Shown piece after piece: positions 530 through 43,013 of a stretch of DNA of 64,000 bases; the stretch's first letter is position 1, and every line of letters starts with the position of its first letter. The position numbers and the translations under genes were made by a program. Source of the stretch: Chryseobacterium mulctrae (GTDB taxonomy: Bacteria; Bacteroidota; Bacteroidia; Flavobacteriales; Weeksellaceae). Below the pieces are notes generated by a model. That model had not been told where the DNA came from. It searched no databases and worked only from the letters and a program-made list of their open reading frames with translations. Location: assembly GCF_006175945.1 (NCBI RefSeq), contig NZ_VAJL01000001.1, forward strand, positions 1,922,001-1,986,000. Reading direction: 5' to 3'.

Positions 530-548
530 TAATTAAAATCATTTGAAA

Positions 549-2621
549 ATGAGAAAACTACTACTTTTTTTTATTTTAATAACATCTCAGCTATTTTATT
601 CACAGTCAGACTGTATTAGTGCAATACCTGTTTGTGGTAACTCTGATATTTCATACAACCCAAGTAGCTCGGGACTTATTCAGGAGGCTACTTCGGGAAG
701 CTGTTTAGGTATGGAAAACTATTCTGTATGGTACGTTTTTACAGCTGCAACATCAGGAACAATTGAATTTACAATAAACCCCGATACGATTCCTGGTGTT
801 ACTCGCTATGATTACGATTTTGCAGTTTATGGTCCTAATATAGACTGTACAACCTGGGATTTCGGAGATGCTATTCGTTGTAATTATTCAGGAACAAGTG
901 GTCCTACAGGATTAAGTTCCACTCAAACAGGATCACAGTGGGGGCCTCCACTTCCAGTAGTTGCAGGAGAAATTTATTATCTTCTTATAGACAACTATAT
1001 TCCCACAAGTAATTTAGGGTTTTCTCTTACATGGGGTGGTACAGCAACATTAACGTCTGCTTTTAACGACCCGGCATTAACGCCTAACCCATTCATTACA
1101 CCTGGAGTTCCTAATGCAACAAACCCTACCCTTCCTAATGAAATTCTAAAGTGTAACTTACCTACACAGTTTAATTTCACAACTTTAACAACCGGTATAT
1201 TGAATGGTAACCCAAATTTCATTGTGACATATCATAATGTTAATAATGATGCAATTACAGGAGCTAACCCATTAACTACAACCATTGTAGATGGCACGAC
1301 ACTTTATTATTATAGAATAAAATATTTAGATCCTGCTAACCCGAATAATCCAGCCAACGGATGTTTTCAAACAGGAAAGTTCAAATTCAGACAAGGAAAT
1401 ATTGTTCCGAATAATGCTACAATCCAAGCATGTAATAATAATGGTTCAGGAACAGGAACATTTAATCTTACAACAGCAGCCGTCTTTGCTGATCCAACTG
1501 CAACGAAAAAATACTATCCTACATTGGCAGATTTAAATGCAGGAACCAACGAAATTACAAATCCTACAGCATATGTATCTGCCCCTAAAACAATTCATGT
1601 AAAAGTAACATCAGTAGAAGGTTGCACAGCTAATTCTACAATTACCCTAAGCTTCTTCCCTGTTGTAGTGGTAACACCAGCATCTTTAGAATCATGTTTT
1701 ATTGAAGGCGCAACCACAACTGCTTCTTTTGATCTTACACAAGCTAATGTAACATCTCAAACAGGCATTACTAAAAGATTTTTCACATCTCAAGCTAATG
1801 CTTTAGCCGGAACTAACGAAATTATCCCAGCTACGAACTATATCACTACAAGTACAGATGTGTATGTGAGAGTAACAAATAATGATGGGTGTTATGCTAT
1901 TACAAAAATCGCATTAAAAGTTTTACCGCCAGTAAAATCATCTGTTCTTAAAGATAAAACTATTTGTCCGGAAGATAAAACTACCCTAGATGCTGGACCT
2001 GGATTCACTGGGTACGAATGGAGCACAGGTGCTACAACACAATCCATTTCAAGTGTTGGTGTTGGAGCTTATTGGGTAAAATTAAAAACAGGTAAATGTT
2101 TTACACTTCAGCAAGTACATGTTTACGCTTCACAACAACCCGTGATTGCAAGTATCGACATTACAAATAATACAATTACAGTAAATGCATCAGGAGGAAC
2201 TGCACCATACAAATATTCATTGGATGGAATTAATTGGCAAGATTCTAATATATTTACAGGTTTACCAAGAGGTGAAAGTAAGATTTTCCTAAAAGATTCG
2301 TTTGATTGTAACCCTATACAGATACAAGTTACCGTTCCTAACCTTATCAATGCAATTACACCAAACGGGGACAACGTTAATGACGAAATAGATTATTCTG
2401 CATTAGCTTACAAAAAGAATTTATTATTCGTTGTTTACAACAGATATGGTAATAAAATCTATGAAGCTGACAAAATAAGAAACTTCAAATGGAATGGAAC
2501 TTCAGGAGGTAAAAAAATCCCTACAGGAACCTACTGGTACACCATTACTTGGAATGAAAACGACAAAAACAATACACAAACCAAATATGACGGATGGGTA
2601 TTGGTAAAAAACAGAGAATAA
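549..2621 (+). CDS. Secreted T9SS type B sorting domain protein
   Basis: 690 residues from the ATG at 549; a TTG six bases earlier is possible but less likely. A hydrophobic signal peptide (MRKLLLFFILITSQLFYSQS) is followed by a Cys-containing beta-sandwich-like region (about 20-170) resembling the PPC-type N-terminal domains of secreted Bacteroidota proteins, so the ligand is unknown. From about 280 two related modules of about 80 residues follow, each with an ACNNNG or SCFIEG start, a TKKYYPTLADLNAGTNEI-like strand and a GC(T/Y) turn. Then comes a GYEWSTGAT block, a PYKYSLDGINWQDSN block and the type B sorting signal from ITPNGDNVNDEIDY to the KNRE end. It is probably exported by the type IX system and anchored to or released from the surface. 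The last 400 residues are shared with the genes at 5067 and 7516; only the N-terminal region differs. Confidence 0.88.
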   Translation: MRKLLLFFILITSQLFYSQSDCISAIPVCGNSDISYNPSSSGLIQEATSGSCLGMENYSVWYVFTAATSGTIEFTINPDTIPGVTRYDYDFAVYGPNIDCTTWDFGDAIRCNYSGTSGPTGLSSTQTGSQWGPPLPVVAGEIYYLLIDNYIPTSNLGFSLTWGGTATLTSAFNDPALTPNPFITPGVPNATNPTLPNEILKCNLPTQFNFTTLTTGILNGNPNFIVTYHNVNNDAITGANPLTTTIVDGTTLYYYRIKYLDPANPNNPANGCFQTGKFKFRQGNIVPNNATIQACNNNGSGTGTFNLTTAAVFADPTATKKYYPTLADLNAGTNEITNPTAYVSAPKTIHVKVTSVEGCTANSTITLSFFPVVVVTPASLESCFIEGATTTASFDLTQANVTSQTGITKRFFTSQANALAGTNEIIPATNYITTSTDVYVRVTNNDGCYAITKIALKVLPPVKSSVLKDKTICPEDKTTLDAGPGFTGYEWSTGATTQSISSVGVGAYWVKLKTGKCFTLQQVHVYASQQPVIASIDITNNTITVNASGGTAPYKYSLDGINWQDSNIFTGLPRGESKIFLKDSFDCNPIQIQVTVPNLINAITPNGDNVNDEIDYSALAYKKNLLFVVYNRYGNKIYEADKIRNFKWNGTSGGKKIPTGTYWYTITWNENDKNNTQTKYDGWVLVKNRE

Positions 2622-2640
2622 TAATTTTCCTCAATCATAA

Positions 2641-2672
2641 AAAATCACCTCAGCAATGGGGTGATTTTTTTA
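2641..2672 (+). terminator. Intrinsic terminator
   Basis: A 9-bp stem (AAAATCACC with GGTGATTTT) is followed by a T run, directly after the type B protein gene. Confidence 0.85.
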
Positions 2673-2762
2673 TTAACACTCAACCTCATCTGTTTACGAT
2701 ACTTGAGTTATGTTTTTCATAGAATTGTTAGTTACTATTTTTAAATTATTTTTTAAAAAAAC

Positions 2763-2770
2763 TATCTTTG
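2763..2770 (+). promoter_or_regulatory. dnaB -7 box, 4 bases before the start codon
   Basis: TATCTTTG fits TAnnTTTG exactly. The ATG begins only 4 bases after the box, where transcription is expected to start in Bacteroidota, so the mRNA may be leaderless. Confidence 0.6.
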
Positions 2771-2774
2771 CACA

Positions 2775-4352
2775 ATGGCGCAGAAAGAAACACTCTCTTC
2801 TCTTACACAAGGGAACTTTGCAAGGGAACTATCGATTGCAGACGGAAAAATGCCTCCTAATGCAATAGATTTTGAAAGATTGGTAATTGGTACTTTTTTA
2901 ATTGATAAAAAAGGGCTCGATCATTCTATCGACCTGCTTACTCCTGAAGTCTTTTATGATCCGAGACATCAGGTTATATTTTCTGTTATCTTAAAACTGT
3001 ATGAAGGAAACCACCCTGTTGACATTATGACTGTTATTCAGGAAATGAGAAAAACAGACAAACTCAGTTCTGCAGGAGGAGACCATTATATAATCGAGCT
3101 TACGATGGGAGTAAGTTCATCTGCCCATATCGAATACCATGTACGTGTAATTCTTGAAAAATATATTTTAAGAAGTTTAATTAATGTTTCAGCAAACGTA
3201 ATTGACAATTCTTATAAAGAATCTACCGATGTTTTCGAACTTTTAGATAAGGCTGAACAGTCTTTTTTTGAAATCACAAATGGAACCATCAAAAAAGGAT
3301 TCGATACCGCCAATACTTTAGTAAAGGAAGCTATTGACATCATTAAAGCTTTAAAAGACAAAGAAGGAATTTCTGGTGTACCATCAGGATTTAGAGATGT
3401 TGATAAAGAAACCGGAGGTTGGCAAAATTCTGACCTTATCATTATCGCAGCACGTCCTGCGATGGGAAAAACAGCATTCATTCTTTCAATGGCGAGAAAT
3501 ATTGCCGTAGAGTACAAAATTCCGATGGCGCTATTCTCATTAGAGATGGCATCGGTGCAGCTCATCACAAGGATGATTGCTTCCGAAACAAAAATTTCAT
3601 CAGAAAAGCTAAGAAAAGGAACGTTGGACGATGAAGAATGGCAAAGACTATTTTCCAATGTATCAGAATTAGAAAATGCTCCTTTATATATTGATGAGAC
3701 TCCTTCCCTTTCCATATTTGACTTTAGAGCAAAATGCCGAAGACTGGTAATGCAACATGGAGTAAGATTAATCATGGTCGACTACCTTCAGCTGATGACT
3801 GCAGGAGGTGGCGGAAAAGGCGGCGGAAACCGTGAACAGGAAATTTCCATGATTTCACGTTCATTAAAAGCGATTGCAAAAGAATTAAATGTACCTGTAA
3901 TAGCACTTTCTCAGCTCTCAAGAAGTGTGGAAACGCGTCCTGGAAAACGACCTCAGCTTTCTGATCTAAGGGAATCCGGAGCAATTGAGCAGGATGCAGA
4001 TATCGTATCATTTATTTTCAGACCTGAATATTATAAAATCACTGTTTGGGATAATGATGAAGATGGAGCTGAAACTTCTACCGAAAACCAAGCCGAATTA
4101 ATTATTGCAAAACACAGAAATGGTGCTACCGCGGATGTAAGATTATCTTTCCTGAAGCATTTTGCAAAATTTGGGAATATTGAAGAGGCAACCAATGGAA
4201 TGGGCTATTCAAATACGCTTGGCGAACCAAGTGGTTTTGAAAAAATTAAAACAACGATACAGCCAGGAGCTGCGTTTGATTTACCAGACAATTCTAAACT
4301 TTCAGGATCTTCTATGAATGATCTTGATGATGAAGAAGATTTTCCGTTTTAA
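2775..4352 (+). CDS. dnaB: Replicative DNA helicase DnaB
   Basis: 525 residues, a little longer than E. coli DnaB (471). It is the hexameric 5'-3' helicase that unwinds the chromosome at the replication fork and contacts primase. An N-terminal helical domain (about 30-130) contains the PPNAIDFERLVIGTFL start typical of the family. The RecA-like motor follows, with Walker A ARPAMGKT at 226-233, a VDYLQLM Walker B region, and the LSQLSRSVE and SDLRESGAIEQDAD motifs. The C-terminal tail is acidic and low in complexity. No intein interrupts the motor. It lies between type B surface protein genes and has its own promoter. The ATG is fixed by the promoter box just upstream. Confidence 0.97.
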   Translation: MAQKETLSSLTQGNFARELSIADGKMPPNAIDFERLVIGTFLIDKKGLDHSIDLLTPEVFYDPRHQVIFSVILKLYEGNHPVDIMTVIQEMRKTDKLSSAGGDHYIIELTMGVSSSAHIEYHVRVILEKYILRSLINVSANVIDNSYKESTDVFELLDKAEQSFFEITNGTIKKGFDTANTLVKEAIDIIKALKDKEGISGVPSGFRDVDKETGGWQNSDLIIIAARPAMGKTAFILSMARNIAVEYKIPMALFSLEMASVQLITRMIASETKISSEKLRKGTLDDEEWQRLFSNVSELENAPLYIDETPSLSIFDFRAKCRRLVMQHGVRLIMVDYLQLMTAGGGGKGGGNREQEISMISRSLKAIAKELNVPVIALSQLSRSVETRPGKRPQLSDLRESGAIEQDADIVSFIFRPEYYKITVWDNDEDGAETSTENQAELIIAKHRNGATADVRLSFLKHFAKFGNIEEATNGMGYSNTLGEPSGFEKIKTTIQPGAAFDLPDNSKLSGSSMNDLDDEEDFPF

Positions 4353-4370
4353 AAATTAATTCAATAAATT

Positions 4371-4425
4371 AATGCCGCGAATGCACGAATGTTTTAAAAA
4401 AGAAATTCGTGTATTCGTGGCAACT
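4371..4425. repeat. Intergenic imperfect palindrome between dnaB and rnhA
   Basis: The left arm (4371-4390, ending in GAATGCACGAAT) and right arm (4405-4422, ATTCGTGTATTCGTGGCA) are reverse complements with few mismatches around a 14-base A/T loop. It resembles dispersed REP-like elements of flavobacteria. It could fold in RNA between the two genes but has no T tract. Confidence 0.6.
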
Positions 4426-4433
4426 TATCTTAA

Positions 4434-4910
4434 ATGAGAATTGAAATATATACTGACGGAGCTTGTAGCGGAAACCCCGGGAAAGGAGGTTACGGAATTT
4501 TGATGCGTGTTCCCGAAAAAAATTATCAGAAAACATTTTCAAAAGGTTTCAGAAAAACCACCAACAACCGAATGGAGCTTCTGGCTGTAATCACTGCATT
4601 AGAAAAGCTAAAATCTACAGAAAATGACATTCACGTTTTTACCGACAGCAAATATGTATCTGATGCCATCAACCAAAACTGGATTTCAGGTTGGATTAAA
4701 AGAGGCTGGAAAAACGTAAAAAACCCGGATCTTTGGAAGAGATTTGTTGTACTTTTTAATCAGCATACTCCTAAAATGCATTGGGTAAAAGGTCATGCAG
4801 GGCATTTTGAAAACGAGCTTTGTGATAAACTGGCAGTTGCAGCCGCAAGCTCGCAAAATCTTGAAGTAGATACTTACTTTGAGGACTTGGAAAAAAATTC
4901 TCTATTTTGA
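4434..4910 (+). CDS. rnhA: Ribonuclease HI
   Basis: 158 residues, the normal length. It cleaves the RNA strand of RNA-DNA hybrids, removing primers and R-loops. The YTDGACSGNPG start carries the first catalytic Asp (residue 8), NNRMELLAV carries the catalytic Glu, and FTDSKYV the second Asp. WVKGHAGHFENELCDKLA contains the conserved His and final Asp. It lies 81 bases downstream of dnaB on the same strand, separated by a palindromic repeat, and may be co-transcribed as a replication pair. Confidence 0.96.
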   Translation: MRIEIYTDGACSGNPGKGGYGILMRVPEKNYQKTFSKGFRKTTNNRMELLAVITALEKLKSTENDIHVFTDSKYVSDAINQNWISGWIKRGWKNVKNPDLWKRFVVLFNQHTPKMHWVKGHAGHFENELCDKLAVAAASSQNLEVDTYFEDLEKNSLF

Positions 4911-5032
4911 ATCAAACTAACATAACGCTTATCATATTCAACTTTTCGTTATCATTAATATTTTTCATTACAAAATAATCAAAATTTTCTACAAAATTAA
5001 CATTATGCATACATTTATTAGCAAAGATTCAA

Positions 5033-5040
5033 TATCTTTA
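5033..5040 (+). promoter_or_regulatory. Candidate -7 box (TATCTTTA)
   Basis: One mismatch to TAnnTTTG (final A), 26 bases before the start of the lectin-like gene at 5067. Confidence 0.35.
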
Positions 5041-5066
5041 CACGTCTAATAGAAGTATCCTAATAA

Positions 5067-7319
5067 ATGAATAAAAAATTACTGTTTTATTTTACCCTTT
5101 TTGTACTTTGTATTTCCGGAAATTTTTCCTCCCAAACTTATCAGCTCACAGGGAATCCTGTCATAACAACGGGTTGGGATATTGTACCTGGCGCAATCGT
5201 TAACACAGACTTTATTCAGCTTACAGCGGACCAAATAAGTCAAGTGGGTGGTGTTAAATTAAATGCCCCAATTAATCTTAAGTACTGCGACAAATGGAGA
5301 GTAGAATTCGATTTTAGGATTGACGGAAACGGAACAACCAATTATGGTAAAGGAGATGGATTAGCTTTTTGGTATTTATCAAATCCTCCTACTTCTTATA
5401 CTTCGGGTGGTGGTTTAGGAATTCCTGCAAATGCAACAGGATTGATGGTTGGTTTTGATACTTTCAACAATAGCACAGAAGCACAAATGAGCAAAGTACA
5501 TGTTTTATATGGTGTTAACAATACCACAGGCTCCAATATCGAATACAACAATACTCCAGGAAGCACTTACCACACTCCCGATCTTATTACTACACAACCT
5601 TTTGTAGGAACAAACTACAAACATGTTGAAGTGACTGGAGAGGTAAGTGGTGCTAATCCTGCAAATTGGATTATTAAGATAAAAATTGATAATGTTTTGG
5701 TGGTTGATCAAACACTTGCTCCATCAGGTGCTGCTATAGGAATGACTCAGGGTTATTTTGGGTTTTCTGCTTCGACAGGTGCTGCAAGCTCAAGACACTC
5801 TATTAAAAATGCTAAAATATATACTGACAAAGTAAATATTCTACAATCTTCAGTAACACAATCATTTTGCCCTAATCCCTCAACAGGTTTCGGAACGGCG
5901 AATTTAACATCATTTAATTCTCAGTTTGTTGCAAATCCGGCCAACTATACTTTCACTTATTCTGTTGGTGGTACTCCTATTACAACACCTATCAATTATC
6001 AGTTTAATGCCAATACAACGGTAAATGTTATCATCAGAGATAATAGTGCAATCCTTTGCGATAATCCTGACGGAAAAATCATCCTTACCCTTTCGCCGTT
6101 TACGGCAACCAACAGAACACTTTCTGCATGTAACAATAATGGTGCAACTACTGCAACATTTGATCTTTCTGCAGCGAATGTGACAGCAGTTCCCGGTGTT
6201 ACTAAAAAGTATTACAGAACATTAGCTGATTTAAATGCAGGGATAAATGAAATCACAAATCCTACAGCTTACGTTTCGGCTCCAGGAAAGGTTTATGTAA
6301 AAGTAACTACGCCTCAAGGTTGTACCGGAAATGCAGAGATTACACTTGTATTCTATCCTTTGCCTGTGTCAACTGATGCTATATTAGAATCATGTTTTAT
6401 TGAAGCAACTCCAACTGCAGCATTATTTAATCTGACCACAGCAAATGTTTCTACTGAAGCTGGTATTACTAAAAAGTTTTATACTACTTTGGCAAATGCA
6501 TTAGCCGGAACCAACGAAATCGTCACTCCTATTACGTACATTTCTCAATCTACAGAGGTCTATGTAAAAATAACGGGTACAAACAGCTGTTATATTATTA
6601 AAAAAATAACTTTGAAAGTAAGTCCTCCGGTAAGATCTTCAGTTTTAAAAGATAAAACAATCTGTATTGATGACAGAACAACATTATATGCAGGTCCAGG
6701 ATTTGATGGTTACGAATGGAGCACAGGAGCTACAACTTCATCTATCTCAAACGTAGCAGTGGGAGATTATTGGGTAAGATTAAAAACAGGAAGCTGCTAC
6801 ACATTACAAGCTGTAACTGTAAAACTAGCAACAAACCCAGTCATTTCAAGCATAGATATTACTAACAATACCATTACTGTGAATGTTTCCGGTGGTGTTG
6901 CTCCATACAAATATTCTTTAGACGGAATCAACTGGCAAGATTCTAATGTATTTACAGGACTTCCACGAGGTGAAAATAAAATTTTTGTGAAAGATTTTTA
7001 TAATTGTGATCCTACACACATTCAGGTAACAGTTCCGAATCTTATCAATGCAATCACACCAAATGGCGATAATGTGAACGACTTCATTGATTATTCAGCT
7101 CTTGCTTATAAGAAGAATCTTATCTTCACAGTCTATGACAGATATGGAAACATGAAGTACCAAGCAGACAAACTAAGAAATTATACTTGGGACGGAACTT
7201 CCGGAGGTAAAAAATTGTCAACCGGTACTTACTGGTACTCTATAACCTGGACAGAAAACGACAAAAACAATACAGAGACAAAATATGACGGCTGGGTATT
7301 GGTAAAAAATAGGGAGTAA
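5067..7319 (+). CDS. Secreted lectin-like domain protein with T9SS type B sorting signal
   Basis: 750 residues. A signal peptide ending near FSSQ is followed by an L-type (legume-like) lectin fold at about 23-255: TADQISQVGGVKLNAPINL, WRVEFDFRIDG, GDGLAFWYLSNPP, LMVGFDTFNN, and the closing GMTQGYFGFSAST. A carbohydrate-binding role is inferred from that fold. Residues about 270-510 hold tandem modules of the same type as in the gene at 549 (ACNNNGATTATFDLS, KKYYRTLADLNAG, GCTGN). The C-terminus is the type B sorting domain ending in KNRE. It is likely displayed on the cell surface. The gene at 7516 is a close tandem paralogue along its whole length. Confidence 0.88.
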   Translation: MNKKLLFYFTLFVLCISGNFSSQTYQLTGNPVITTGWDIVPGAIVNTDFIQLTADQISQVGGVKLNAPINLKYCDKWRVEFDFRIDGNGTTNYGKGDGLAFWYLSNPPTSYTSGGGLGIPANATGLMVGFDTFNNSTEAQMSKVHVLYGVNNTTGSNIEYNNTPGSTYHTPDLITTQPFVGTNYKHVEVTGEVSGANPANWIIKIKIDNVLVVDQTLAPSGAAIGMTQGYFGFSASTGAASSRHSIKNAKIYTDKVNILQSSVTQSFCPNPSTGFGTANLTSFNSQFVANPANYTFTYSVGGTPITTPINYQFNANTTVNVIIRDNSAILCDNPDGKIILTLSPFTATNRTLSACNNNGATTATFDLSAANVTAVPGVTKKYYRTLADLNAGINEITNPTAYVSAPGKVYVKVTTPQGCTGNAEITLVFYPLPVSTDAILESCFIEATPTAALFNLTTANVSTEAGITKKFYTTLANALAGTNEIVTPITYISQSTEVYVKITGTNSCYIIKKITLKVSPPVRSSVLKDKTICIDDRTTLYAGPGFDGYEWSTGATTSSISNVAVGDYWVRLKTGSCYTLQAVTVKLATNPVISSIDITNNTITVNVSGGVAPYKYSLDGINWQDSNVFTGLPRGENKIFVKDFYNCDPTHIQVTVPNLINAITPNGDNVNDFIDYSALAYKKNLIFTVYDRYGNMKYQADKLRNYTWDGTSGGKKLSTGTYWYSITWTENDKNNTETKYDGWVLVKNRE

Positions 7320-7323
7320 TCCT

Positions 7324-7357
7324 AAAAAGCACCACTTACTTTAACGTGGTGTTTTTT
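7324..7357 (+). terminator. Intrinsic terminator
   Basis: CACCAC pairs with GTGGTG around a 10-base loop, flanked by A and T runs. Confidence 0.75.
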
Positions 7358-7515
7358 AAATTTCAAAACCCTCATCAACAAAGCAATAATAAGCAGTAAG
7401 CAGACTATATTCAGTTATTATTTTTTAATACTCAATAGCTACTTCCTTACCTTTTTAACCTTATTTTAAACAAAAAAACGAATAATTTTACCAAATAATA
7501 AATATTAAAGTAAGT

Positions 7516-9786
7516 ATGAAAAAACTTTTACTCACCACTTTTCTGTTAATACTAACAATATTCAATACCCAAATCAATGCCCAAACTTATCAACTCACCG
7601 GTACACCTGTAATCAATACAACAGGATGGGACATCGTTCCGTCTGCAACAGCAACTGGAGACTTTGTACAGCTTACTGCAGATCAAATAAGTAAGTTTGG
7701 AGCGATTAAGCTTTCTAATCCTATCAACCTAAAATATTGTGACAAATGGAAAGTTGAATTTGACTTCAGAATAGACGGAAACGGAACAGCCGCTTACGGA
7801 AGAGGTGACGGTCTAACATTTTGGTATCTTTCTAATCCTCCAACTACATTTACAACCGGAGGCGGACTCGGAATCCCTGCAAATGCAAACGGATTAATGG
7901 TTGCGTTTGATATATTCAACAACTCTACAGAAGGACAGATGAGTAAAGTCCATGTTCTATATGGAACAAATAATGTGCCTTCCGGAAGCCCAAATATTGA
8001 ATATAATGTGACGGCTAATAGTACTTTTCACTCTGCGGATCTTAATCCTACCCAAGCCTTTGTAGGAGCTAATTATAAGCATGTTGAAGTAAATGGTGAA
8101 GTAGATGCTGCTAATATTAATAATTGGAAAATTCAAATAAGAATAGACGGTGTGCTTATCACTGATACTTCTTTCGCTCCTTCAGGAGGTGCAATTGGAA
8201 TGACTCAAGGGTATTTCGGATTTTCCGCAGGGACAGGATTAGCAAGTGCAAGACATTCTATAAAAAATGCGAAAATATTTATTGATAAAGTTCCGATTCT
8301 ACAAAACAGCATCACTCCGTTTGTATGTACAAACCCTGCGACTGGAAACGGATTTGTAGATTTAACTTCTTATGCCAATCAGTTTGTAAACAACCCGGGA
8401 AACTATATCATCACTTATTATGTTTTAGGAAGCTCTACGCCTATTGCAACTCCTACAAATTTTCAATATTCTGGGAATACTACAATTTCTGTAGTTATAA
8501 AAGATCCTTCATCTACGTTATGTGATAATGGTGATGCAAGAATTATTTTAAATCCGAGTCCGTTTGCCGCAGATGATGCCACGATAACAGCTTGTAACAA
8601 TAACAATGCAGGACTTGCTTACTTCGATTTGAGTACCGCTGCTGTAACTACACTTCCGGGTGTTACAAAAAGATATTATCCTACCCTTGCTAACCTTAAT
8701 GCAGGAACTAGTGAAATCCTAAACTGGGCAAATTATCCTGCCACAAACGGAGCAACAGTTCATGTAAAAGTTACCACTCCACAAGGATGTACAGATAATG
8801 CAGTTATTACTCTTAATCACTTCCCTGTTGTTGTTGTAAACGATGCAACTCTCAGATCATGTTTCCTGGAAAATAATGTTTCAATGGGATCATTTAATCT
8901 TACCAATGCGACAGTAACCCCACAGACCGGAATAACAAAAAAATATTACCCGTCATTACAAGATGCCATCAACGGAAGCAACGAAATAATCACGACTAAT
9001 CCTTACATTGCTCCAAATGGTGTAGTTTACATCAAAGTAACCAATGCAAACGGATGTTATGCAATTGCGAAGGTTACTTTAACGGTAATTCCACCAGTAT
9101 ATTCGACAGTTTTAAAAGATAAAATCATCTGCGTAGAAGATAAAACGACATTAGATGCAGGAACAGGTTTTGATAGCTACGAATGGAGCACAGGTGCGAC
9201 TACTCAAACTATTTCAAACGTAGGAGTTGGAACTTACTGGGTGAAACTGAAAACAGGAGACTGTACTGCTCTTCAAAATGTAAAAGTATTTGCTTCGGAG
9301 CAACCTGTAATTACATCAGTTGATGTCGCTGCAACAACAATTACAGTTTATGCTAATGGTGGAACTCCTGCTTACCAATATTCTTTAGATAATGTAACTT
9401 GGCAAGCTTCTAATGTATTTAAAGGACTTTCGAGAGGAGTACACAAGATTTTTGTAAAAGATTCTTACGATTGTGAACCAATGGAAACTGAAGTTACGGT
9501 TCCTAATATCATTAACGTAATCACTCCAAACGGAGACGGTCGTAACGATGTGATAGATTATTCTGCATTGGGAAGTAAAATAGATTTAACATTCAGTGTT
9601 TACAACCGATATGGAGCAAAAATTCATCAGGGGGACAAAACCAATAATTACAAATGGGACGGAACTGCAAATGGAAGAAAAGTTCCTACAGGAAGCTACT
9701 GGTATTCTGTAACATGGAACGAAAACAATAAAACCAAAACTCCGGTAAAATTATCTGGTTGGATTATTGTAAAAAACAGGGAATAA
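7516..9786 (+). CDS. Secreted lectin-like domain protein with T9SS type B sorting signal (tandem paralogue)
   Basis: 756 residues with the same architecture as the preceding gene: signal peptide ending near INAQ, an L-type lectin-like domain (GDGLTFWYLSNPP, LMVAFDIFNN, MTQGYFGFSAGTG), two repeat modules (ACNNNNAGLAYFDLS, KRYYPTLANLNAG, then SCFLENN), a YEWSTGATTQ block and the type B C-terminal domain (VITPNGDGRNDVIDYSALG, ending KNRE). The two lectin genes probably arose by duplication. Divergence is greater in the repeat modules and in surface-loop-like segments than in the core lectin strands. The start ATG is followed at once by Lys-Lys and a hydrophobic stretch, as expected for a signal peptide. 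Confidence 0.88.
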   Translation: MKKLLLTTFLLILTIFNTQINAQTYQLTGTPVINTTGWDIVPSATATGDFVQLTADQISKFGAIKLSNPINLKYCDKWKVEFDFRIDGNGTAAYGRGDGLTFWYLSNPPTTFTTGGGLGIPANANGLMVAFDIFNNSTEGQMSKVHVLYGTNNVPSGSPNIEYNVTANSTFHSADLNPTQAFVGANYKHVEVNGEVDAANINNWKIQIRIDGVLITDTSFAPSGGAIGMTQGYFGFSAGTGLASARHSIKNAKIFIDKVPILQNSITPFVCTNPATGNGFVDLTSYANQFVNNPGNYIITYYVLGSSTPIATPTNFQYSGNTTISVVIKDPSSTLCDNGDARIILNPSPFAADDATITACNNNNAGLAYFDLSTAAVTTLPGVTKRYYPTLANLNAGTSEILNWANYPATNGATVHVKVTTPQGCTDNAVITLNHFPVVVVNDATLRSCFLENNVSMGSFNLTNATVTPQTGITKKYYPSLQDAINGSNEIITTNPYIAPNGVVYIKVTNANGCYAIAKVTLTVIPPVYSTVLKDKIICVEDKTTLDAGTGFDSYEWSTGATTQTISNVGVGTYWVKLKTGDCTALQNVKVFASEQPVITSVDVAATTITVYANGGTPAYQYSLDNVTWQASNVFKGLSRGVHKIFVKDSYDCEPMETEVTVPNIINVITPNGDGRNDVIDYSALGSKIDLTFSVYNRYGAKIHQGDKTNNYKWDGTANGRKVPTGSYWYSVTWNENNKTKTPVKLSGWIIVKNRE

Positions 9787-38032: not shown

Positions 38033-38803
38033 TTATTGTTCATTTCCAAATCTCTTTTCTTGTATTTTATCATAGGTCTTTACGTAATCAGGGTTTTCAG
38101 TTTTCATGATCTGATCCCAGAATCGAAAATACAGACCATAATTTCCTTTAAATTTATTATGATGAAGGTTGTGATGTACTGATGTATTCAATATTTTAAA
38201 TATCATTGATTTCCTTAGCCATTTCGGAGCTACTTCATATCCTAAATGCCCATATACATTGATGATCAAAGAACTCACTACGAATATAGAAATACTGAGT
38301 GGGTGTAAAGGAATAACAAAAAGTAGGAGTGGTAAAATCAATCCCTCAGCTACGGCCTCGAAAAAATGAAAAGAGTAAGCTGCGAAAGGACTTGGGTTGG
38401 TTGATTTATGATGGATAAGATGTACATGCTTAAAAATTTTCCTATAATGCAAAAGTCTGTGCATCCAATAAAAGTAAGTATCATGAATAACTAGTCCCGT
38501 AACAATACTTCCCACAAACCAATATACAGAATAATCATCAACATTTTTGTAGATTTTAGTAAACTGATTTAATGGAGTATAGATTACTAAAAAAATCATG
38601 AACGCCATGATCAACGAGGAGGCTGCGGAGTGAAGCACTTCCCTTACAATATCCAACTTCTTAACTTCTTGCTGTTGAATTTTTGCATTATAAAGGGCTT
38701 TCTTAAATAAAAAGTAACAAATCCAATAACAAAATCCCGCTAAAAAGAAATACTGCAAGAAGCCCATGAAACTCAGATCAAAAAAATATTTCAGGTGTTT
38801 CAT
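38033..38803 (-). CDS. Sterol desaturase / fatty acid hydroxylase superfamily membrane protein
   Basis: 256 residues with about four membrane segments. The di-iron His clusters are present: HRLLH (H-x3-H), HLIHH (H-x2-HH), a further His in FHFFEAV, and HHNLHH (H-x2-HH) near the C-terminus. Members hydroxylate or desaturate sterols, carotenoids or acyl lipids with oxygen; the substrate here is unknown. Convergent with the DUF1801 gene. Confidence 0.88.
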   Translation of the reverse strand: MKHLKYFFDLSFMGFLQYFFLAGFCYWICYFLFKKALYNAKIQQQEVKKLDIVREVLHSAASSLIMAFMIFLVIYTPLNQFTKIYKNVDDYSVYWFVGSIVTGLVIHDTYFYWMHRLLHYRKIFKHVHLIHHKSTNPSPFAAYSFHFFEAVAEGLILPLLLFVIPLHPLSISIFVVSSLIINVYGHLGYEVAPKWLRKSMIFKILNTSVHHNLHHNKFKGNYGLYFRFWDQIMKTENPDYVKTYDKIQEKRFGNEQ

Positions 38804-38924: not shown

Positions 38925-40724
38925 TTATTTGGTATTTATCCCTTTAAATTCTGCTTGATTGAGAGCCCATGCAAATGCGTTGGCTGTAAAAGTAGAATTA
39001 TAGATAAGTGTGCCTGATGTTCCATAAGTAGTTTTAGGAACGGGCTTCTTATTTGTATCCAAAATAAAAGGACATATTGTGCTGGAAGCCTGATCTCCAC
39101 TATTTCCACTTTGTGAATTAAAGCCACCTTCTCCGACCCATATTAAATTAAAACTTTTATGTTTAAAAGCAGTCACAGATCCGGCTACAGTACCTGTATT
39201 ATTGTTAGCATTGGTTGCATTAGAATATGAAGAAATTTCACCAGATGGTAATCCTGTAAAATATACAACATCTGTTGCATCATCTCCCCAAAGCTTACCT
39301 CGGATGTCTCCAAAAGGTCCGTTGGTAATTTCATCACTTGTAATAGGTAATGTATAGGTTCTTCCATCTCCTGAGCCTCCTGTTGTAGACTGGCTCAAAC
39401 TCGGATCATTAAAAATGGTTCTGAAAAAGTTCTGATTTCCGGTAGTATCTTCACAGAAAGAAAGAATTACTCCCCCTTTTTGTAGATATTGTAAAAATAC
39501 TGCTGCATCATTGGTGCTCATTCCATAGCTATATCCTATTACAACAATATCAACCGGAGCCGAACCCAGCAGCCATGTATTCAATTGTGCTGTACTTGGA
39601 GAATTGCTTCCATCAATAACCTGGGACCATCCTTCATATTTTACCGTACTTGTTGCCAACGTTCCGTAATTAGTATTCGTTGTTATTAAAGTATTTGATG
39701 GTCTTCCCGAGTTACTTAGATTATATCCATACGTATTTCCCAATCCTATAGCCAGTAATTTTTTTGCAGGAATAACTACAATCACATTTACACTACATGT
39801 AGTAGAAACTCCACCCCCACTGTCTGAAGTAATGGTCATTTTTTTCACAGTAGTAGAGCTGGGTGATCCTGTACCCTGAAGAGTAACATTTTGATTTCCT
39901 GTAGCAGTAAACGTACCTGAACCACTAAATGAGATTCCATCTACAGTATTGGTCGTAATTGTATAACTTCCCAAGGCTGTAACATTTACAGGAAGAGTAA
40001 TTGTATTGGAAGCAGCCAAAGCTGTCCCTACTTTATAGACTCCATTTACAGTAGCACTACCACAACTCATTGTATAAGTTCCTGCAGGACTAAGAACATT
40101 CACTGTAACAGGAGGTGTACATGTAACATCTGTTCCATTTGCAGAAAGCTCTACAGTATCTACCTGAATGGTAGCCGGCACTCCTTGTCCCGGAACCTGG
40201 ATTTTTTGTACTCCAGTGTTAAGAAATACCCCTGTCCCGTAGAAATTATATCCATTAGTTGTAGTACCTGTAATGGTATAATTTCCAATTTTAGTTACAT
40301 TAACAGTTACACTAAGATAATTAGAAGCTGTAAGTTCTTTCGTCTGAACATACGCACCCATTGCCTTTGTATTGGAACAATCAATTGTAAAAACAGATTT
40401 TCCAATTTGCCCGCATACACTTTTCCATTCATTATCTGAAAGGCTCCAATAATTGTAACAGTCTTCAGTGGTGTTAAAGATCGTGAGACCATCATCACTA
40501 GTAGGGTTTATTGTTATTGCATTTCTTTGAGCCTCTGTAAGGCGTGGAACAAGTATTCCTTTATTATTATTTCCAGAAACAATATCCAAAACAGAATTGG
40601 GATTGGGAGAAGAGGTATTGATACCAACTGCTCCATTGTTTACCTGTGAATAAAACTTTCCGAAAATCATAAAGAGGACCAAAAAAAGCGTCCTAATTTT
40701 TACTTTTGTAAATTTCACATCCAT
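38925..40724 (-). CDS. Secreted surface protein with GINTxxP N-terminal motif and Rossmann-like C-terminal domain
   Basis: 599 residues. A signal peptide ends near KFYSQ. Residues 30-110 hold the GAVGINTSSPNPNSVLDI, KGILVPRLTEAQRNAI and GLTIFNTTEDCYNYW blocks, seen at the start of many flavobacterial surface proteins. From about 130 to 320 there are two related beta-rich units with Cys pairs (CTPPVTVNVLSPAGTYTMSCG and TTNTVDGISFSGSGTF). From about 325 an alpha/beta domain (KKLLAIGLGNTYGYNLS, VDIVVIGYSYGM, QKGGVILSFCED) resembles class I glutamine-amidotransferase-like folds. No type B sorting domain is present. Unknown function; it may be an adhesin. A 34-bp element lies upstream. Confidence 0.75.
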   Translation of the reverse strand: MDVKFTKVKIRTLFLVLFMIFGKFYSQVNNGAVGINTSSPNPNSVLDIVSGNNNKGILVPRLTEAQRNAITINPTSDDGLTIFNTTEDCYNYWSLSDNEWKSVCGQIGKSVFTIDCSNTKAMGAYVQTKELTASNYLSVTVNVTKIGNYTITGTTTNGYNFYGTGVFLNTGVQKIQVPGQGVPATIQVDTVELSANGTDVTCTPPVTVNVLSPAGTYTMSCGSATVNGVYKVGTALAASNTITLPVNVTALGSYTITTNTVDGISFSGSGTFTATGNQNVTLQGTGSPSSTTVKKMTITSDSGGGVSTTCSVNVIVVIPAKKLLAIGLGNTYGYNLSNSGRPSNTLITTNTNYGTLATSTVKYEGWSQVIDGSNSPSTAQLNTWLLGSAPVDIVVIGYSYGMSTNDAAVFLQYLQKGGVILSFCEDTTGNQNFFRTIFNDPSLSQSTTGGSGDGRTYTLPITSDEITNGPFGDIRGKLWGDDATDVVYFTGLPSGEISSYSNATNANNNTGTVAGSVTAFKHKSFNLIWVGEGGFNSQSGNSGDQASSTICPFILDTNKKPVPKTTYGTSGTLIYNSTFTANAFAWALNQAEFKGINTK

Positions 40725-40787: not shown

Positions 40788-40795
40788 CAAAACTA
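40788..40795 (-). promoter_or_regulatory. Candidate -7 box of the surface protein gene (TAGTTTTG)
   Basis: TAnnTTTG on the minus strand, 63 bases before the ATG and 30 bases downstream of the conserved 34-bp element. Confidence 0.45.
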
Positions 40796-40826
40796 TAATG
40801 CATTTGGGATTTAACTAAAAATATCA

Positions 40827-40860
40827 CTACGTAATACTACTCATGAGTATTAATACTCAT
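40827..40860 (-). promoter_or_regulatory. 34-bp upstream element, copy 1 (possible operator)
   Basis: Two overlapping palindromes, ACTCATGAGT (40839-40848) and GAGTATTAATACTC (40845-40858). 28 of 34 bases match copy 2 at 42929-42962, in the same orientation. It begins about 100 bases upstream of the surface protein gene. Confidence 0.6.
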
Positions 40861-40876
40861 TCGGAGGGGGTAAAAC

Positions 40877-41869
40877 TTAAATTTTGAGTATAAAATTATT
40901 AATATTAACATCTGAACCTAAGCCCATTTTTTTTCGAATCCTGTATTTCCTGCTCTCAACTGCCCTTACACTACTATTTGTACAAAGAGCTATTTTTTTG
41001 GTATCGAAATTTAATCTCATTAAAGCACAAATATGCAGTTCAGAATAAATAAGCCCCGGATTAATCTTTAAAATATTAGGAATGAATTCAGGAAAAAACA
41101 ATTGAAACCGTTCAAAAAAAATCGGAGAATCATTTTCTGCAAGCTCTATAATCTCTGTAACATTATCTTCTGTTAAATTATTAATGATGATCCGCTGTCT
41201 CATCAGTTCATTATTTACTTTCAAAAGATCTCCAATAGTAGAATCCTTAATTTCAGTTTCTCTGAGAAGACCATAAATTAGCTTATCTTTTTGTGAAATA
41301 AAATAAATATCAATTAAAAAAGTACTGATGGCAAAAATGATATTAAGAAGCTCAATAAGTTTAAAATCTTCTGTTTTTATAAACTTACTCTTAGATATAA
41401 AGCCCATGTCAAAATACAAACATCCTATAAAATTGATCGTGATAATCGTGACAATCAGTAATATAAAAAAAGAATCTTCCTTATAATTGAAATAGAAAGG
41501 AATAGCAAACAAAAGTGAAAAATAAAAATATTCTACACCTGCATTTTTCCAAGTATATATATAGAAGAAACTAACAATAAATGTAAGGATGATAAAAACA
41601 CTAGTAATGACTGTTTTCAAAATTTTTTTGAATCGACTTATTTTTCCCTTGATACTAATTAAAACGAACCAAAAGAAAGTAATAATGATTAAAAAAGTAG
41701 AACTTACCATATCTCCAAAGAAGAAAATGATAAATATTGAATAAAATAAAAACACTAAAAACAAAAACAAAAGATAGCGCTGTATAAGAGCTAAATACTG
41801 GTACTCAAAATCATTAGCAGATGGCTCAAAATTGTAAGTAATTATTTTAGAAAATACTTTACTTATCAT
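40877..41869 (-). CDS. Membrane-anchored regulator with C-terminal LuxR-type HTH
   Basis: 330 residues. Residues about 30-205 are six hydrophobic helices. A charged, coiled linker (about 215-245) leads to a C-terminal helix-turn-helix at about 275-330: LIYSELHICALMRLNFDTKKIALCTNSSVRAVESRKYRIRKKMG. This matches the LuxR/GerE-type arrangement (a scaffold helix, then recognition helix S-x-R-A-V-E). It would sense an envelope or membrane signal and bind DNA while attached to the membrane, perhaps controlling the neighbouring surface protein gene. No phosphoacceptor domain is seen. Confidence 0.72.
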   Translation of the reverse strand: MISKVFSKIITYNFEPSANDFEYQYLALIQRYLLFLFLVFLFYSIFIIFFFGDMVSSTFLIIITFFWFVLISIKGKISRFKKILKTVITSVFIILTFIVSFFYIYTWKNAGVEYFYFSLLFAIPFYFNYKEDSFFILLIVTIITINFIGCLYFDMGFISKSKFIKTEDFKLIELLNIIFAISTFLIDIYFISQKDKLIYGLLRETEIKDSTIGDLLKVNNELMRQRIIINNLTEDNVTEIIELAENDSPIFFERFQLFFPEFIPNILKINPGLIYSELHICALMRLNFDTKKIALCTNSSVRAVESRKYRIRKKMGLGSDVNINNFILKI

Positions 41870-42021
41870 ATTCTAAAATTTTTATTTAAAGATTGAATAA
41901 GGGGCTTTCACAGGGGCGCCCAATTAGGGTTTGGTACTTTAAATTTATAAAAAAAAGCAATCCCCCATTCAGGAGAATAGTAGATTTTTATCGAAATAAA
42001 GAATTTTATAGGAAATAATAA

Positions 42022-42061
42022 AAAAGCAAAAAACCTCATAATTTAATAGTCACTTATAAGG
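42022..42061 (-). terminator. Terminator of the HTH gene pair
   Basis: On the minus strand CCTTATAA pairs with TTATGAGG (one wobble), then a T run. Confidence 0.6.
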
Positions 42062-42065
42062 AGTT

Positions 42066-42401
42066 TTAAACTTTATCCTTAAAGATTCTGTGCCATTTTG
42101 TGAGTGTATTTCTGCTTATTTTAAAATGTCTGGCAGTTGTTATATTATTCAGTTTATTACTTCTTTGATATTCAAGAATCTTTAGAATAGAATTTTTATC
42201 ATAAGAACGAAGCCTACGGCTTTTAGATTCAGTTAGTTGCTTAGATGATCCAAAAATAAGTGTGTTAAGAGTAAGAACATCCATCACTGTTTCAATACAT
42301 TCTATTTTATTATTAATCTGCGCATTGCCTTTCTTTTCAGGGTATAATTCATCAATAATATCTGTATATATCTGCCTGTAATCCGGACACATATTCTTCA
42401 T
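42066..42401 (-). CDS. Small transposase-like helix-turn-helix protein, second of a coupled pair
   Basis: 111 residues from the ATG at 42401, whose ATGA overlaps the stop of the upstream gene; an ATG 18 bases earlier is possible. The N-terminal half (YRQIYTDIIDELYPEKK) is specific to this family. The C-terminus is an HTH with SRRLRSYDKNSILKILEYQ, ITTARHFKISRNTLTKWHRIF, like those of transposase orfA and Trp-repressor-like proteins. No catalytic transposase domain is present. It seems to be a DNA-binding accessory protein of unknown role. Confidence 0.68.
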   Translation of the reverse strand: MKNMCPDYRQIYTDIIDELYPEKKGNAQINNKIECIETVMDVLTLNTLIFGSSKQLTESKSRRLRSYDKNSILKILEYQRSNKLNNITTARHFKISRNTLTKWHRIFKDKV

Positions 42402-42814
42402 AATTCTTTTTTCATCCATTTAAATAAAGTAGTTTTCGGTATTCTATATTTAAGAATCACTTGTTGCGGGGTCATCTTTTTTGTGGAAATTTTGTTGAGA
42501 ATAAAGCTTTTAACTTCTTCAGTATATATATTTTTTCTAAAAACCGGAAAATCATTTTTTTGAGAAACAAGATTACCTACACTTTTTAAAGGAGCATAAA
42601 GAATCAAATGTCCCGTATAAAGCCTGAAAAAATCATATTCTAAAAGCTTGCTCCATCTAAGTAAGAGATCTGTATCAAGACTACTTTGCTGATACATTTT
42701 TTCAATATCAGCTTCAGTACATTTTAAAAATTTTGTTACTCTTTCCGAAGAAATTTGAAGTTCTTTCATACGATGGTAAATAAACTCACCAATATGTATC
42801 TCCTTTAAGTTCAT
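42398..42814 (-). CDS. Small helix-turn-helix protein, first of a coupled pair
   Basis: 138 residues from the ATG at 42814; a TTG six bases upstream is possible but the family starts MNLKEIHIG. The first half (IGEFIYHRMKELQISSERVTKFLKC, DTDLLLRWSKLLEYDFFRLYTGH) looks like an XRE-like helical unit. The second half ends in a short HTH (QQVILKYRIPKTTLFKWMKKEL). It is followed by a second HTH gene through an ATGA overlap. A homologue pair of this sort seems to recur in Chryseobacterium genomes (from memory, unchecked); function unknown. The 34-bp element lies about 110 bases upstream. Confidence 0.68.
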   Translation of the reverse strand: MNLKEIHIGEFIYHRMKELQISSERVTKFLKCTEADIEKMYQQSSLDTDLLLRWSKLLEYDFFRLYTGHLILYAPLKSVGNLVSQKNDFPVFRKNIYTEEVKSFILNKISTKKMTPQQVILKYRIPKTTLFKWMKKEL

Positions 42815-42928
42815 TTTCAATAGTCATTTGTGTTGAAACTTTTTAGAGGACTCATAAATCTTCTGAAAAGCCAATTATTTTGATGGGATAAAAGTATCAA
42901 GAAAGCAGCAAAAGCCATGCGTAACATA

Positions 42929-42962
42929 CTACGCAATACCACGCACGAGTAGTAAAACTCAT
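42929..42962 (-). promoter_or_regulatory. 34-bp upstream element, copy 2 (possible operator)
   Basis: 28 of 34 bases match the copy at 40827-40860, in the same orientation. The invariant segments include CTACG, AATAC, GAGTA and ACTCAT. A TACTTTTA box lies 31 bases downstream on the minus strand, close to the 30-base spacing at copy 1. Confidence 0.6.
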
Positions 42963-43013
42963 ATACTTAATTGTTCTACTTAATGTAAGTGCAACAAAAT
43001 GAATGTTATAATC

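Follow-up and report, generated by a model that had tools for sequence, protein, structure and literature searches.

A conserved element of about 35 bp precedes the promoters of a small locus in Chryseobacterium mulctrae that encodes a membrane-bound LuxR-type protein (LuxRm), a predicted secreted protein (SURF) and two small HTH-like proteins (HTH1 and HTH2). The existence of the element is certain, and the reading we favor is that it is probably the cognate activator site of LuxRm, through which the locus would regulate itself. LuxRm very probably acts through the element because the element stands at a fixed distance before the genes of the locus and, across the genomes searched, goes with LuxRm. 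LuxRm is very likely its binder, as predicted, and activation via the element is likely; binding by LuxRm, activation, autoregulation and the signal are the parts that we infer from sequence comparison. Neither this element or regulator nor the binding sites of membrane-embedded LuxR-type proteins of the Bacteroidota were found in the literature searched. The analysis provides one site defined to the base, with a probable binder, targets and promoter geometry, and if the proposal is true, the control of a surface protein in these bacteria becomes directly testable.

Within the window, the whole stretch of 64,000 nucleotides that was analysed, a sequence-only reading had noted that the segments at 40827-40860 and 42929-42962 match at 28 of 34 positions in a shared orientation, and a recount gave the same figures. 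From base composition, 0.09 same-strand 34-mer pairs this alike are expected per 64 kb. A scan of the window gave 54 groups of such pairs no more than 20 kb apart, and 40 groups among the matches listed all fall within the first ~10 kb, a region of related coding genes. Three large predicted secreted proteins encoded at 543-9786 (692, 750 and 756 aa) have closely related C-terminal parts, which accounts for the further long direct repeats among the matches listed. The core pattern, at up to three mismatches, occurs twice in the window and in none of 100 shuffles; these are its only two occurrences in the 4.87-Mb genome, where a reversed control gives none. An exact scan of genome contigs with the gene-strand 23-mer, which perhaps left out records of or near this genome, returned no matches.

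A weight matrix built from the sites at LuxRm loci has the gene-strand consensus TGTGAGTTTTACTACKCRTGMGTARTATTGMGTAK. The repeat reported earlier stands, with its length corrected from 34 bp to about 35 bp. It contains three GMGTA-type half-sites and a TGAGTTT block upstream of them. The two palindromes named earlier are both present in the first site, while GAGTATTAATACTC does not hold as the family consensus; the palindrome conserved across orthologs is the inverted repeat TACKC-RT-GMGTA. Its inverted half-sites end in GTA and resemble NarL heptamers. The element differs from the sites of LuxR/NarL/RcsB (GerE-type) proteins in its 5-2-5 inverted arrangement followed by a direct third copy 10 bp on.

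Table 1. Features of the locus, in window coordinates.
Feature	Position	Strand	Description
SURF	38925..40724	-	599-aa predicted secreted protein; putative target gene
-7 box TAGTTTTG	40788-40795	-	31 bp downstream of the 3' end of element copy 1
Element copy 1	40827..40861	-	35 bp, upstream of the SURF gene; 38.7 bits
LuxRm	40877..41869	-	330-aa one-component regulator; N-terminal hydrophobic helices, long helix, C-terminal LuxR/NarL-type HTH (predicted)
HTH2	42066..42419	-	117-aa small HTH-like protein, second of the HTH pair
HTH1	42398..42814	-	138-aa small protein with HTH-like sequence, first of the pair
-7-like box TACTTTTA	42889-42896	-	32 bp downstream of the 3' end of element copy 2
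Element copy 2	42929..42963	-	35 bp, upstream of HTH1-HTH2; 53.6 bits

SURF and HTH1-HTH2 are minus-strand genes, each downstream of one element copy, and LuxRm lies between the copies (Table 1). The distances are 102 bp to the SURF ATG and 114 bp to the HTH1 ATG, in agreement with the approximate 100 and 110 bp claimed before. HTH1, which has no Pfam match, probably starts at the ATG at 42814 and not at the TTG at 42820 of the ORF list, because its orthologs start at the equivalent ATG. The N terminus of SURF is signal-peptide-like by eye, and its predicted fold combines beta-rich domains with a C-terminal alpha/beta region. The best structural matches of SURF are mostly unspecific beta-rich proteins, and a profile search of solved structures gave one marginal match (E 0.022). 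No element directly precedes LuxRm in the window. Its expression there would come via read-through from HTH1-HTH2 or from another promoter, so that copy 2 possibly serves LuxRm too; read-through is uncertain because HTH2 and LuxRm are separated by a weak terminator-like hairpin. Directly downstream of SURF, at 38033-38803, is a fatty-acid hydroxylase-family gene that is also found in two related loci (L052 and L067).

The promoter boxes assigned to both copies in the sequence-only reading are in place, although the spacing claimed (30-31 bp) gives way to measured values of 31 and 32 bp. Spacing was counted over 141 sites of at least 20 bits, with one weaker match dropped. A TAnnTTT[GA] box follows the element by 31-33 bp in 136 of them, with 70 sites at 31 bp and 63 at 32 bp, and any other offset is seen at most once. 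The strict form TAnnTTTG stands at 31 or 32 bp in 106 of the 141 sites, and the box is missing at five. This is a conserved, sense-oriented element at a fixed distance upstream of a promoter. Compared pairwise, 39 SURF-side sites have an identity of 0.85 within the element, 0.60 around the box and 0.33-0.41 in the flanks, and the spacer between element and box is poorly conserved.

The -7 box of the Bacteroidota sigma-A promoter is TAnnTTTG and spans -12 to -5 in Flavobacterium psychrophilum (PMC9723704). On this numbering, the element would therefore extend from about -44 to -80 with its dyad center near -61 (about -60.5/-61.5 from the placement of the -7 box; PMC9723704). The window promoters resemble the Bacteroidota sigma-A promoter in having a TAnnTTTG-like box and differ from it in that the -33 region is weak and a dedicated element stands upstream at a fixed distance. 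A site near -61, or wholly upstream of the -7 box, is an activator arrangement, and the 31-33 bp spacing fits the activator site proposed in the sequence-only reading.

LuxRm might instead bind the element as a repressor that keeps the promoters shut until a signal arrives, and autoregulation would be compatible with repression too. This is unlikely, given that no part of the element reaches the -7 box, from which it is set off upstream by 31 or 32 bp at nearly all sites, and that it adjoins a weak -33 region; activators are arranged in this way. The dyad, and the repetition of copies within one locus, could also bring to mind an element that acts in RNA as a 5' leader hairpin, or a mobile or structural repeat. 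However, the -7 box places the element upstream of the transcript, only two copies were found in this genome, and pairing between the arms is not preserved at the K and M positions: in 116 distinct sites the combinations are T-C in 45, G-A in 39 and C-C in 1, against G-C in 17 and T-A in 14. The hairpin and repeat readings were rejected on the lost arm pairing and the position upstream of the transcript, and we give them next to no weight.

The proposed activator site of LuxRm was followed across a genus sample of 148 genomes, including that of the window. The core pattern at up to three mismatches matches in 90 of the 148, many of the matches being chance-like, and the reversed control also gives some. 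A scan with the weight matrix (59 nonidentical ortholog loci, both strands, threshold 12 bits) gave 142 matches above 12 bits, and a control of one mononucleotide shuffle of the same loci, read on one strand, gave none above 8 bits. With L121 added, the set comprises 60 loci for the 60 ortholog-bearing genomes. A search of related genomes had been suggested on the basis of the window sequence, and it found the element beside the LuxRm ortholog in 60 of 60 carriers (60 of the 148 genus genomes). Matrix matches account for 57 of the 60 loci. Outside the matrix scan are L121, with two sites; L092, an incomplete locus whose genome (G012) has the site by the family pattern search; and L118, where a copy with one inserted base was seen by eye before SURF. 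Flanking markers on both sides (psd/cdsA/ftsH and DUF1801/ABC) were present at 43 of the 60 loci; 13 had the psd/cdsA/ftsH side only, 1 the DUF1801/ABC side only and 3, all short loci, neither.

In the family, 246 genomes were searched with a 32-base pattern at up to three mismatches and, for LuxRm orthologs, at E <= 1e-30. The pattern occurs in 38 genomes, with none for its reversed control, and the orthologs occur in the same 38; none of the 208 other genomes has the element. While the 60 genus loci were picked by the presence of LuxRm, these two family searches are independent of that choice, and their co-occurrence (38/38, 0/208 elsewhere) supports the earlier proposal of an activator site with a shared regulator and the membrane HTH protein as the candidate. 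Four more genomes of another genus, probably Elizabethkingia by the database names of near-identical proteins, carry relatives with 45-48% identity to LuxRm and lack the window-type pattern. Of the recurrent three-mismatch matches that the genus sample gave outside the locus, those in the eight loci L053-L060 (two types) lie inside long ORFs and were dropped, and those at L061 and L062 do not match the refined pattern.

The locus occurs in two gene orders, [LuxRm][HTH1-HTH2][SURF] and [HTH1-HTH2][LuxRm][SURF], and elements precede transcription units in either. In many relatives an element stands before LuxRm itself. Five loci have none before HTH1 (L042, L043, L047, L065 and L106), and four have an element of at least 20 bits before SURF only (L063, L064, L070 and L112). 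Loci in which another gene takes the place of SURF (L044 and L045) retain the element, and lower-scoring copies remain where SURF was not found (L049 and L051). HTH1/HTH2 were not found at 12 of the 60 loci; two of these, L078 and L079, are too short for a judgement. In one locus (L119 in G093), the match to LuxRm contains internal stops, possibly a recent loss, and elements remain before LuxRm and SURF.

The presence of the HTH1-HTH2 pair in the locus, and of the element before HTH1 in most loci that have the pair, would fit binding by HTH1 or HTH2 in place of LuxRm. We regard this as quite unlikely. The element is kept in 10 loci without HTH1/HTH2 detected at the locus, the only place where they were sought (L046, L069, L110, L114, L118-L122 and L097; all 8 kb or more save the short L097), and homologues encoded elsewhere in the genome may act on it in trans. 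In two of these loci, L097 and L110, a lower-scoring copy lacks its box. Conversely, homologues of HTH1/HTH2 in L127, L129, L138 and L141 come without this element, and some loci of the other genus have elements arranged in the same way and no HTH1/HTH2 in the ORF list. LuxRm as the candidate is further supported at SURF, whose distribution does not follow that of the element: the window-type element is absent, with negative best matrix scores, at six SURF homologues without an adjoining LuxRm ortholog (two in G013, one each in G109, G103 and G090, and a second copy in G016; in G090 the contig extends only ~400 bp upstream of SURF, and the check there covered just the usual position of the element).

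Diverged relatives of LuxRm extend the comparison. A paralog with 36-39% identity in G047, G068 and G104 has its own element, CACTCGTGAGTATTnATGAGTG, before the gene (with one mismatch in G104), and at up to two mismatches CACTCGTGAGTATTnATGAGTG occurs in exactly those 3 of 148 genomes. The four other-genus genomes have two tandem LuxR-type genes, with 33% and 45-48% identity. A 22-base variant, CACTCGYGAGTGYAAATGAGTG, stands before the first of these (the 33% one) in exactly those 4 of 246 genomes, and a related element precedes a SURF-like gene there; either tandem gene may encode the partner of CACTCGYGAGTGYAAATGAGTG. Both variant elements have a spacing to the box similar to that of the window type. 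Each variant motif was built from the very loci in which it was then found, and only its absence elsewhere is independent. The window-type orthologs shown have R-A in the recognition region, the variant regulators K-S, and the two variant regulator-element pairs hint at a recognition code.

A general rule that every paralog has an element was rejected. A strict layout template finds 8 of 23 paralog and other-genus loci (and none in reversed sequence), and no element of this layout was found beside a box in L123, L127, L129, L134, L136, L137, L138, L140 and L141. With 8 of 23 loci following it, and with L123, the closest paralog in the genus (45% identity, R-A type), and the eight others among the exceptions, the rule leaves part of the protein family uncovered. 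By eye only, L130, L132, L133 and perhaps L131 have variants.

A regulator encoded elsewhere might bind the element, whose link to LuxRm would then reflect nothing but shared inheritance of the locus; this is very unlikely. Co-occurrence by itself fits a binder or a neighbor alike, and at most paralog loci no element was found. Against this, some LuxRm proteins that have diverged come with elements that have diverged too, the element is absent at SURF homologues that lack a LuxRm ortholog, and of the genes followed, LuxRm alone is present at every element-bearing locus, SURF and HTH1/HTH2 being missing at some. The paralog comparison supports LuxRm as the candidate through these diverged pairs, though most paralog loci have none.

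LuxRm is predicted to carry membrane segments and a DNA-binding domain in one chain. Its hydrophobic stretches fall between about residues 24 and 193, and helices are predicted at 21-51, 54-72, 81-105, 114-126, 133-152 and 168-229 (model mean pLDDT 80.7, pTM 0.58). In a Foldseek search with the predicted model, the C-terminal HTH fold matches the DNA-binding domains of RcsB, DosR, VraR and NarL (7ve5, 1zlj, 5o8y and 1je8; probability 0.99-1.0, target TM up to 0.78, with weak E-values of at least 0.6), which points to an HTH of the LuxR/NarL type by fold. Its recognition region reads S300-V301-R302-A303-V304-E305. Pfam gave no HTH model above cut-off (Sigma70_r4_2 only at E 0.16) and no known sensor domain, Pfam and NCBIfam gave no receiver or kinase domain, and a profile search of solved structures gave no match. 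Orthologs are named "Two component regulator three Y domain-containing protein" in many database sources; Pfam finds no three-Y domain in the window protein, and the name has probably been propagated.

Like proteins of the ToxR/CadC type, LuxRm would have sensor and DNA-binding domain in one membrane protein and is proposed to act on nearby promoters. ToxR and CadC have one membrane helix and a winged OmpR-type HTH, whereas LuxRm has about six predicted N-terminal helices, the last of them long, and the LuxR/NarL-type HTH. In the proposed mechanism, a LuxRm dimer would bind the inverted pair TACKC-RT-GMGTA centered near -61. Further subunits or contacts would hold the upstream TGAGTTT block and, a helical turn downstream of the pair, the third GMGTA half-site. 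Bound there, LuxRm would bring RNA polymerase to a promoter of the Bacteroidota sigma-A type (TAnnTTTG) whose -33 region is weak. It would act on the units of its own locus, SURF, HTH1-HTH2 and LuxRm; action on LuxRm itself would be direct in many relatives and, in the window, only by read-through, which is uncertain. The outcome would be a small switch with positive autoregulation that controls one surface protein and answers to an envelope or membrane signal.

A broader and more doubtful idea is that a group of membrane LuxR proteins forms insulated switches with private elements, each built of repeated half-sites ~31-33 bp from a TAnnTTTG box, in which residue 302 sets the last base of the half-site, Arg going with GMGTA and Lys with GAGTG/GAGGG. 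A single cell could then host several such switches in parallel; G047, G068 and G104 each carry two element types. If this is true, one could deduce the operators of many uncharacterised surface-protein switches in Bacteroidota from the sequences of their regulators. The Arg/Lys code has exceptions: no element was found for L123 or for the type comprising L136, L137 and L140, all with Arg, and the sites of L124-L126 mix GAGTA and GAGTG.

HTH1-/HTH2-like genes without the window-type element turn up at many sites across the genus (L127, L129, L133, L137, L138, L141 and L165-L167), and their neighbors are often predicted secreted proteins and further membrane LuxR paralogs. In L139 (G131:C60, ~2414-2460), tandem GCGTA-type half-sites 10 bp apart precede a gene for a 686-aa protein that is the neighbor of a different LuxR-type protein of 507 aa, with the -7 box about one helical turn closer than in the window type.
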